This document shows positions 10,356 through 47,120 of a stretch of 64,000 bases of DNA, piece after piece. This DNA is from an uncultured bacterium (GTDB taxonomy: Bacteria > Cyanobacteriota > Vampirovibrionia > Gastranaerophilales > Gastranaerophilaceae), in the NCBI GenBank assembly GCA_950022495.1, contig CATLLJ010000005.1:52037-116036 (forward strand), written 5' to 3'. A model generated the notes under the pieces. The model saw only the letters and a list, made by a program, of their open reading frames with translations. It did no database searches and was not told where the DNA came from. How positions within the stretch are numbered: the first letter of the stretch is position 1; every line of letters starts with the position of its first letter. The position numbers were made by a program, and so were the translations under genes.

Positions 10356-11169
10356 ATGTTGAAATTCAATAATATTAAGAAAATCGGGGGGGGGTAACCT
10401 TTTAAAGCCTCTCCTGTGCGGGTTTTGCGGATTATCTGATTCCATGTCATTCCGAACTTGTTTCGGAATCTCTAATAAAATTTTTGCATTTACCCTTGCT
10501 GAAGTTTTAATTACTCTGGGGATAATAGGAGTTGTTGCCGCAATAACAATTCCGGGTCTTGTTACAAAATATCAGCAATCGATTGCTGAATCTAAATTGA
10601 AGAAAATGTATTCAACATTGTTGAATGCTGAAAAAATGGCTTTTGCAGAATATGATGAGCCGCCGGAAAGCTGGGCTCGACCGGAGTCTTCTATATCAAA
10701 AGAATGGTTTCAAAAATATTATTTGCCATTTTTAAATAAGGCGAATGTTGAGCATAGATCTAAAACTCAAAAAGATTCTTATCCTATATATAATATGAAT
10801 GGACAACTTGCTGATACGCAGCCGGGTGGAAGAATGTTTACTAAATTTTCTGATGGTTCTTGCATTACCCATTTTGTAAATAATCAATTTTATTTTTTAG
10901 TATATGATGTTAATTGTTCTTCTCCACCAAATGTTTTAGGCAAAGATGTATGGGATATTGCTGAATATAGTTGGAATACTTATTTGTATCAAAATGGTTT
11001 TTTAGAAAAACGGGAAACTATTCCTCAAATAAAAAACTATAGAACAGCCGGTCGAGAACAATATGTAGAAAATTGTAAAACTGGTACGCATATGGGAGGT
11101 GCCCCAACAACATGTTTTGCTGTATTTGTTGCGGATGGCTTTAAGTTTTCAAAAGATTTGCACTGGTAA
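10356..11169 (+). CDS. Pseudopilin, reading frame interrupted at a poly-G tract (phase-OFF form)
   Basis: Type II secretion / type IV pilus-like subunit. A promoter, an AAGGAGA site and the ATG at 10356 start a leader MLKFNNIKKI, then nine G (10386-10394), after which the frame stops at once (TAA). With eight or eleven G the same ATG reads in frame into KIFAFTLAEVLITLGIIG, the prepilin signature (Ala at -1, Phe 1, Glu 5), and on to the stop at 11169. The soluble part is about 190 aa with late cysteines (VENCKTG, TTCFAVF) as usual for this lineage's pilins. The in-frame ATG at 10444 has no ribosome site. Part of the leader (10445-10472) is a palindromic repeat. Either truly phase-variable or a homopolymer sequencing error. 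Confidence 0.72.
10386..10394 (+). repeat. Poly-G tract (9 G) in pseudopilin leader
   Basis: Nine consecutive G in a genome that is otherwise AT-rich, ten codons after a well-equipped ATG. The pilin frame needs 8 or 11 G. Such tracts are known slipped-strand hotspots in phase-variable genes. Confidence 0.85.
10445..10472 (+). repeat. Small palindromic repeat inside pilin leader
   Basis: ATTCCGAA and TTCGGAAT form an 8-bp stem with a short loop (within tgtcattccgaacttgtttcggaatctc). It encodes SFRTCFGIS in the pilin frame, between the G tract and the FTLAE signature. It resembles dispersed palindromic repeats seen in many bacterial genomes (from memory); no second copy is in the window. Confidence 0.5.
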
Positions 11170-44990: not shown

Positions 44991-45782
44991 ATGTTATTAA
45001 CAGCAGATATTGGAAATACAAATATTACCCTTGCCTTATTTGAAGGCGATAAATATATTAATGAATTTCGTCTTGCTTCAGATAAAGATTTATCGGGCGA
45101 AGAATATGAAATTCTTTTAAAATCTTTATTTAAAGACTATACAATTGAGGGTTGTGTTATTGCTTCGGTAGTTGAAGAATTAAATGTGAAATTCAAACGT
45201 GCTGTTGACAATGTTTTCAATATTACTTCAGTATTTGTTGCACATGATATTAATTTAGGTATAAAAATAGCAACAGATAATCCGCACGAGGTTGGTGCTG
45301 ACCGATTGGCAAATGCTGTGGCGGCTGCTAATTTGTATAATGGTGCTGTGATTGTAATTGATTTTGGAACTGCAACATCATTTGATATTATTAATTCAAA
45401 ACATGAATTTCTGGGCGGAGTTATAGCACCGGGTATTAATACCCAGATGAAATGCTTAAAAACTTCAACATCTAAACTTCCGAGAATTGATGTTACCATA
45501 TCTCAGAATGCTATCGGACATAATACAACAGATGCAATTTTATCAGGTGTTATTCGCGGTACTGCTTGTATGGTGGATGGATTGGTTGCTCAATGTGAAG
45601 CTGAATTGGGTGAAAAAGCGACTTTAGTCGCAACCGGCGGATATTGCGGTTTGATTGCAAATTATTTAAAAAGACCTTTTGACATCGTGAATCCTATTCT
45701 AACTCTAGAAGGGTTAAGATTAATTTATCAAATGAATACTAATAATAAAAATAAGGAGAAAATTTATGAAATGCATTCATAG
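44991..45782 (+). CDS. coaX: Type III pantothenate kinase
   Basis: Phosphorylates pantothenate, the first step of CoA synthesis from the vitamin. 263 aa with N-terminal phosphate-binding LLTADIGNTNITLALFEG, the substrate region NPHEVGADRLANAVAA, the catalytic VIVIDFGTATSFDII, and LGGVIAPGINTQMKCL. The last 17 nt overlap the ATG of the following phase-variable pseudopilin (45766) in another frame, and the pilin's AAGGAG site lies within coaX. The ribosome site of coaX itself is embedded in a terminator-like hairpin. Together with panB, panC and coaE this covers much of CoA synthesis. Confidence 0.95.
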   Translation: MLLTADIGNTNITLALFEGDKYINEFRLASDKDLSGEEYEILLKSLFKDYTIEGCVIASVVEELNVKFKRAVDNVFNITSVFVAHDINLGIKIATDNPHEVGADRLANAVAAANLYNGAVIVIDFGTATSFDIINSKHEFLGGVIAPGINTQMKCLKTSTSKLPRIDVTISQNAIGHNTTDAILSGVIRGTACMVDGLVAQCEAELGEKATLVATGGYCGLIANYLKRPFDIVNPILTLEGLRLIYQMNTNNKNKEKIYEMHS

Positions 45783-46502
45783 TCATAATTTCGGGGGGGG
45801 GGTACCCGTTTAAGGCTCTATAATAAGGCTTTTCAAGGATTTACGTTAGCCGAAGTGTTAATTACACTGGGGGTTATTGGTATTGTTTCTGCTATAACTA
45901 TTCCGGGTTTGATTACGGCTCATAAGAGAATTGTTCTCGCAGCTCAATTTAAAAAGGCTAAATCACAGCTATTTCAAGCTGTTAGATTATGGCAGGAAGA
46001 AGAAACGGAAGATTTGTGGGGGACATATTATCATCCAACCGATAAAAACGGTACCGCTTTAAGAAACGGTTTTTATAAATATTTAAAAGGTACAAATGGT
46101 ACGTATGACAGAATTTTAGAGTCAGAATTAACAACTTATTATACTTCTGCAAAAGGTTCACATTTGAAGGCTCATTACTGTCCTTCGAATTGTTGTACTC
46201 ATCCGGTTAAACATAGTTTTACAACTTTTGACGGTATAATGTACAATGTCTGCACCCGTGATGGGCAAATTAATTTCACATTTGATATAAATGGATATGA
46301 TAAAGGTCCAAATAAATGGGGTGTTGATTTATTTGATTTTGATTTGAATGAAAATAATGTCCTCTATAATCGGTATTCATGTTCAGTCAGCGGCTGTCAG
46401 GTTTATTTTCGTTCTCGTGGCGGAGGCGGGGTTAATGACGGGATTGGCTGTACTGCTTGTGCTGTTAAAGACAATGATTATTTTAAAAATATTGAATTAT
46501 AA
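45766..46502 (+). CDS. Pseudopilin, reading frame interrupted at a poly-G tract (phase-OFF form)
   Basis: AAGGAG, then ATG at 45766 and the leader MKCIHSHNF, followed by ten G (45793-45802); in this state the frame ends at TAA after GTACCCGTT. With eight or eleven G it continues into LYNKAFQGFTLAEVLITLG, a textbook prepilin cleavage site (Gly at -1, Phe 1, Glu 5), and on to the stop at 46502. No start codon exists in the pilin frame between the upstream stop (45786) and the signature, so the gene cannot be made without a frame switch. The soluble domain has several cysteines (HYCPSNCCTH, YSCSVSGCQ, GCTACAV) and FDINGYDKGPNKWGVDLFDF. It overlaps the end of coaX and is convergent with rex. Confidence 0.78.
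45793..45802 (+). repeat. Poly-G tract (10 G) in pseudopilin leader
   Basis: Ten consecutive G after the ninth codon. The sequence just after it (TACCCGTTTAAGGCTCT) aligns with that after the tract at 10386 (TAACCTTTTAAAGCCTCT), showing that the whole leader is a conserved module. Confidence 0.88.
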
Positions 46503-46505
46503 CGT

Positions 46506-47120
46506 TTATATTTGATATGTAAATTGTAGGAAGTTGCCCATCAGGTTTTCATTCCAAACCTGCACATCTTCAGGAACATCTAAAACTGTGGGAGAAAAAT
46601 TCCATATATATTTAATATTAGATTGTACAATGAAATCAGCAGTTTCTTGTGCAAATTTGCCTGGAACTGTCAAAATTGCAATATCGACAGAGTTTTCTTC
46701 TGTATATTTTGGAAGTGTTTTTATGTCCAGAATTTTTTTTCCATTAATTTCTGAACCAATTTTATTTTTATCATTATCAAATAAACTTATAATATTTAAT
46801 CCATAGCTCGTAAAATTATCATATTTTGCCAGAGCCATTCCAAGGTTTCCTGCACCTATAATGTAGGCTCTTTTGTTTTTTGTAAATCCAAGTGTTGTTT
46901 CTATTGATTTTTTTAACTCTTTTACAATGTAGCCTACGCGAGATTTCCCAGAATTATTTAATAAATTGATATCTTTTCTTACCTGAGAATCATCAATTCT
47001 TAAAAGTGTTGCGATTTGTTTACTTGAAATATATTCGTTTCCGCTATCGATAAAATCCTGTAAAATACAGTGATATAAGGTTAATCTGTTAATAACTTTA
47101 TCTGAAATTTTTTTATCCAT
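46506..47120 (-). CDS. rex: Redox-sensing transcriptional repressor Rex
   Basis: 204 aa. Rex senses the NADH/NAD ratio and represses fermentation and respiration genes. N-terminal winged helix with YISSKQIATLLRIDDSQVRKDI, then a Rossmann domain starting AYIIGAGNLGMALAKYDNF with the NAD motif, and VDIAILTVPGKFAQETADFIV; ends with FTYQI. Length typical. It sits 46 bp from the divergent ybgC-like gene; the intergenic -10 boxes face both ways. A Rex regulon would fit the electron-transfer genes at 18-21 kb, but no Rex operator was confirmed. Confidence 0.93.
   Translation of the reverse strand: MDKKISDKVINRLTLYHCILQDFIDSGNEYISSKQIATLLRIDDSQVRKDINLLNNSGKSRVGYIVKELKKSIETTLGFTKNKRAYIIGAGNLGMALAKYDNFTSYGLNIISLFDNDKNKIGSEINGKKILDIKTLPKYTEENSVDIAILTVPGKFAQETADFIVQSNIKYIWNFSPTVLDVPEDVQVWNENLMGNFLQFTYQI

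Follow-up and report, generated by a model that had tools for sequence, protein, structure and literature searches.

The window analysed here is a stretch of 64,000 nucleotides from an uncultured bacterium of the Gastranaerophilales, and the locus under study (locus 2) lies between coaX and rex. The coaX gene, encoding a type III pantothenate kinase (44991-45782, forward strand; Pfam PF03309, E 4.8e-61, and NCBIfam), shares 17 bases at its 3' end with a short switch leader on the same strand that has its own Shine-Dalgarno sequence, AAGGAG (45753-45758), and, 7 bases on, an ATG at 45766. This ATG and the eight codons that follow encode MKCIHSHNF (45766-45792) and run into a pure tract of ten G (45793-45802), exactly as the first-pass annotation had read it. 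Behind the tract lies the post-tract part of a cassette (TACCCGTTTAAGG..., 45803-45839), in which stops close two of the frames and the pilin frame yields TRLRLYNKAFQG, whose last residue is the Gly at position -1 of the prepilin cleavage site. The FTLAEV signature starts at 45840 (sequence from there: FTLAEVLITLGVIG), and the pilin reading frame as a whole (45804-46502, forward strand; translation, Pfam and TIGR02532) specifies 232 aa past the tract and has no start codon of its own, since none of ATG, GTG and TTG occurs in it from the last stop codon up to the signature, a point on which the earlier reading was correct. The flanking gene rex, encoding a redox-sensing repressor, occupies 46506-47120 on the reverse strand (Pfam and NCBIfam). 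When the tract was set in silico to lengths from 7 to 13 G, the leader entered FTLAEVLITLG with 8 and 11 G only, the two lengths originally proposed, and 7, 9, 10, 12 and 13 G led to a stop after 14-19 codons.

The protein encoded at locus 2 combines Gly at -1 (Gly or Ala being usual in prepilins), an FTxxE methylation motif and a hydrophobic helix, as expected of a prepilin. The prepilin methylation motif was the sole match in the body (PF07963 N_methyl, 24.4 bits against a cut-off of 21.2), with TIGR02532 (NCBIfam) likewise above its cut-off. An AlphaFold model predicts a long N-terminal helix (residues 3-54; mean pLDDT 74.5), and a search of the PDB with this model, at that pLDDT, returned 1oqw_A as the best pilin match (TMq 0.33, E 2.6), which is too weak to be convincing. 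The GspG-like pseudopilin model TIGR01710 scored 19.7 bits, below its cut-off of 88.85; because the score falls so far short, the first-pass label "pseudopilin" is not established and "type IV pilin-like" is the safer name. The same genome encodes a prepilin peptidase (PF06750, E 3.2e-35) and has 46 N_methyl matches.

A comparable arrangement (locus 1) occurs on the forward strand of the window, where an ATG at 10356 opens the leader MLKFNNIKKI, followed by a G9 tract at 10386-10394 (leader and tract together, 10356-10394), and the pilin frame extends from FTLAEV at 10489 to 11169. Layout and post-tract motif are alike at the two loci, but locus 1, unlike locus 2, has an in-frame ATG 3' of the tract, in a repeat-derived stretch and without a Shine-Dalgarno sequence. 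The pattern GGGGGGGG gave five matches, from two tracts, in the window, compared to 0.14 expected by shuffling. At 10434-10488, repeat-like DNA (CATTCCGAACTTGTTTCGGAATC) is inserted in frame in the pilin leader of locus 1; such in-frame insertions are also found in the pilin leaders of L165, L182, L185, L186, L190 and L415, and several pilins carry a doubled signature, FTLA-GATHV..PP..AK.G-FTLAEV.

The first-pass annotation had described a conserved cassette used twice. The shared post-tract motif bears this out, but the number is too low: the genome of the window (G000, 1.93 Mb) contains 14 runs of at least nine G, 12 of them in pilin leaders, and in 11 of these 12 both leader and tract are intact. 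Broken switch copies include L022 (G000:C19), with a frameshift within the pilin N-terminal helix, and L400 (G000:C12), in which the start codon is lost and the tract interrupted, as well as L019 and L404. The two remaining G9 tracts, L013 (G000:C3:138656) and L021 (G000:C18:12010), are both in frame in non-pilin genes, for a Gly/His/Pro-rich secreted protein (tract in the signal peptide) and a hexapeptide-repeat acyltransferase-like protein; these are possible additional contingency genes.

Of 46 genomes in the same genus, 13 have tract-FTLAE arrangements; G001 has more than 30 of them and G039 about 20, and in G014, of the same genus, we counted at least 37 cassette copies, and many contigs break at them. 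The search of related genomes that the first-pass annotation had suggested, done as a DNA pattern search across the Gastranaerophilales, recovered pilins with such tracts from 84 of the 286 genomes, belonging to 16 of the 50 genera, with up to 83 matches per genome, and a reversed control pattern in the same order-wide search gave none. A broader contig scan, whose pattern permitted any base in the gap and hence chance matches, placed the cassette in JAMPCZ, CALUWC and JAFUPZ contigs only, the rest being mostly chance matches in unrelated phyla.

To compare reading frames, we used loci collected by DNA patterns that are neutral as to frame. In the stretch that separates the tract from FTLAE, the pilin frame of 124 leaders of the genus contained no stop in 1,581 codons, compared to 155 and 220 stops in the two alternative frames; for 74 further leaders, taken from other genera, the figures were 0 in 961 as opposed to 86 and 126, so that the 198 leaders together show 0 stops in 2,542 pilin-frame codons as opposed to 241 and 346 elsewhere. 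A start codon 3' of the tract was absent from 112 of 127 loci in the genus and from 69 of 74 in other genera; an internal start in the pilin frame, which we considered as a way around the tract, is thus lacking at most loci. Orthologues that are out of frame (OFF) in both species had dN/dS values of 0.02-0.25, with dS nearly saturated in some pairs: 0.23 over the whole gene for L139/L145, and 0.02, 0.08 and 0.04 for three more pairs over short 5' parts only. Locus 2 and its orthologue in G034 gave 0.17. Because stops are missing from the pilin frame and dN/dS is low, we conclude that the out-of-frame genes are kept and that translation must cross the tract; the sequences thus suggest that ribosomes enter the pilin across it often enough for selection to act.

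The tract itself varies in length, as seen among paralogues and species from one assembled sequence per species, mostly MAGs. Four G025 copies, 94-100% alike in the compared region, have G11, G12, G14 and G15; the orthologues L139 and L145, 87% identical along 229 aa, differ by two G (G11 and G9); and near-identical paralogues with differing tracts also occur in G013, the range among near-identical copies being G9-G15. Several other orthologue pairs have equal lengths, which argues that the tract is not wildly unstable, and length is uniform in some species (all G9 in G045, nearly all G8 in G039).

We determined the frame of 191 loci whose ATG start has a clear Shine-Dalgarno sequence. Only 18 were in frame (ON), where 64 were expected, and the 173 OFF loci comprised 92 that need one base fewer and 81 that need one more. 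Since loci within one genome are not independent, we also drew one locus per species, which gave a median of about 6 of 44 in frame (p about 0.003); ON was the commonest state in just 1 of 16 species with at least three loci. Among OFF loci, tracts no longer than 10 G were mostly one G short (69 of 98) and tracts with at least 11 G mostly had one G too many (63 of 75), indicating that ON lengths cluster around 10-11. In a small control read by hand, 5 of 9 tracts that are short or interrupted, and hence expected to slip less, were in frame, compared to the 18 of 191 above. If switching were random, roughly one locus in three would be in frame, and selection for OFF, or another mechanism, is therefore needed. 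A probable explanation of the bias is that cells in the ON state are usually counter-selected or that only one or few of the many pilins are displayed at once.

Relatives of the locus 2 body carry different leaders. In G045, a body with 64% identity sits in the same coaX-pilin-rex order behind a plain in-frame MKKSA-FTLAEV leader without a tract, whereas in G034 a body with 65% identity lies elsewhere in the genome behind an out-of-frame G8 leader of that species' own type. By the first-pass annotation, a switch would be refuted if homologues had a single fixed tract length that always kept the leader in frame; these two relatives, one out of frame and the other tractless, show a different picture. 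Leader types are specific to a species and common to paralogues whose bodies are often less than 50% identical, which, together with the G045 and G034 leaders, argues that the switch was gained, lost and replaced, perhaps through gene conversion or duplication, without regard to the body. The conserved cassette DNA (TAACCNNTTAA) was considered as a mobile element or recombination site and rejected, being found in one genus only; post-tract sequences differ in other species, between which only the reading frame is conserved. Silent pilS-like cassettes were ruled out for most copies, which have their own Shine-Dalgarno sequence, ATG and intact body.

We propose, with a probability of roughly three in four, that locus 2 is a poly-G contingency locus, one of a repertoire of separately switched paralogues whose consensus state is OFF. 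In the proposed mechanism, a pure G tract links a type IV pilin-like gene to a leader that brings its own Shine-Dalgarno sequence and ATG; with 8 or 11 G, a single leader of 24-25 residues would run into FTLAEVLITLG to give a prepilin, and with 9, 10 or 12 G the ribosome would stop after 15-19 codons and make no pilin. Replication slippage, probably acting on DNA rather than RNA, would change the tract length, so that few cells of a population would be ON at any time and switching within the population would presumably be reversible. The subunits may assemble into a filament of benefit to the cell, and the many paralogues with the same switch (11 intact copies in this genome and as many as dozens in related ones) would then constitute a repertoire of filament subunits. 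As in other contingency loci, repeat length sets the frame, lengths differ between close copies, and ON and OFF lengths both occur, ON being strongly rare. The first-pass proposal of a tract-length frame switch on a pilin is thus strongly supported at the sequence level by frame protection, purifying selection and length variation, although it missed the scale across genome and order, the exchange of leaders and the OFF bias. Working against our reading are the shortage of ON loci, the uniform lengths in some species and the full-length MutS1 encoded in the genome, which would lower slippage rates. A broader picture, which we advance only tentatively, is that up to dozens of type IV pilin-like genes per genome stand, almost without exception, one base off, each cell showing none or few of them through rare slippage, as a one-of-many antigenic or bet-hedging display with an exchangeable leader cassette that is held OFF by selection or read through RNA slippage.

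The strongest competitor, though an unlikely one, is RNA-level recoding, in which the DNA would be stably out of frame and RNA polymerase would slip on the G run, so that a constant minority of mRNA gives low-level pilin. Such recoding would account jointly for consensus-OFF DNA and purifying selection and suits frame errors in both directions, and in insect endosymbionts homopolymers that are out of frame are known to persist through slippage (Wernegreen, 2010, as cited in PMC6260861). However, transcriptional slippage in the literature consulted concerns A/T runs, tract length differs between near-identical copies, and recoding offers no reason for avoiding in-frame DNA unless low expression is selected. 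We favour replication slippage as the best supported mechanism because the same layout in Bifidobacterium breve has been shown to switch. Less probable than recoding of the RNA is a programmed frameshift of the ribosome on the GGG GGG run: its G_GGG_GGG could serve as a -1 slippery heptamer, and most loci have a zero-frame stop behind it, but the direction required is split 92 to 81 among OFF loci and mixed within genomes (8 and 3 in G000, 5 and 5 in G163), and one event cannot serve both directions.

Equally improbable is that miscounted G runs make in-frame genes seem out of frame. G runs are difficult to sequence and database lengths can deviate from those of the population (PMC9187656), yet the miscount would have to be -1 in G039, G045 and G066 but +1 in G001, G093 and G120, and fixed in-frame genes need no pure G run; a general miscount is also unlikely because both non-pilin G9 tracts of G000 are in frame. 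The least credible explanation is that these are decaying pseudogenes, or pilins started elsewhere 3' of the tract. It fits the few broken copies, but as a general explanation it is contradicted by the stop-free pilin frame of the 198 leaders, most without a start codon, and by dN/dS values far below 1.

The poly-G contingency reading extends such switching to uncultured gut relatives of cyanobacteria, where it would act on type IV pilin-like genes and form a large system spanning the lineage. Ordinary gene calling would miss or mis-start many pilins of such genomes. The system also offers a natural test of the way in which gut conditions set ON and OFF frequencies, and the strong OFF bias despite preserved coding poses a concrete puzzle. 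Our literature search found no link between Gastranaerophilales and phase variation, and one paper mentions type IV pilus genes for a termite-gut member of the order but does not mention switching. The switch works on a known principle; its occurrence in this lineage and on this gene family, its scale, its exchangeable leader and its bias towards OFF are new.

In mucosal pathogens, switching by poly-G tracts is a classic phenomenon. The poly-G/C loci of Campylobacter jejuni resemble those described here in having pure G8-11 tracts within coding sequence, 20-30 loci per genome and mixed ON and OFF states (PMC6097035). They differ in serving diverse genes, many for surface modification, rather than a single pilin family with a common leader. 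The repeats of Opa genes are pentamers, and Opa proteins are beta-barrel adhesins, not pilins. In other respects Opa of Neisseria gonorrhoeae offers a parallel, with about 11 paralogous surface proteins that are scattered in the chromosome and each stochastically phase-variable (PMC3745409). Homopolymeric tract switches near the 5' end of genes, where slippage gives a short truncated product, were surveyed in 99 genomes (Orsi et al., 2010, PMC2831843), but these are poly-A/T and include no multi-copy pilin family. The closest counterpart is the G-tract switch of sortase-dependent pili in the bbr_0113 and bbr_1889 clusters of B. breve UCC2003 (Penno et al., 2022, PMC9187656), likewise a gut commensal, in which a first ORF with an export signal is followed by a G-tract and by a pilin body that is in a different frame and lacks a translation start of its own. 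There, omission of a single base joins the ORFs, the major lengths in culture are OFF, and deep sequencing revealed a mixture of tract lengths, among which the in-frame one was enriched in mice (PMC9187656). B. breve, however, is an actinobacterium with sortase-linked LPXTG pili in one or two clusters per genome, whereas the genes described here are type IV pilin-like, number up to dozens of scattered copies and share leader types among unrelated bodies.
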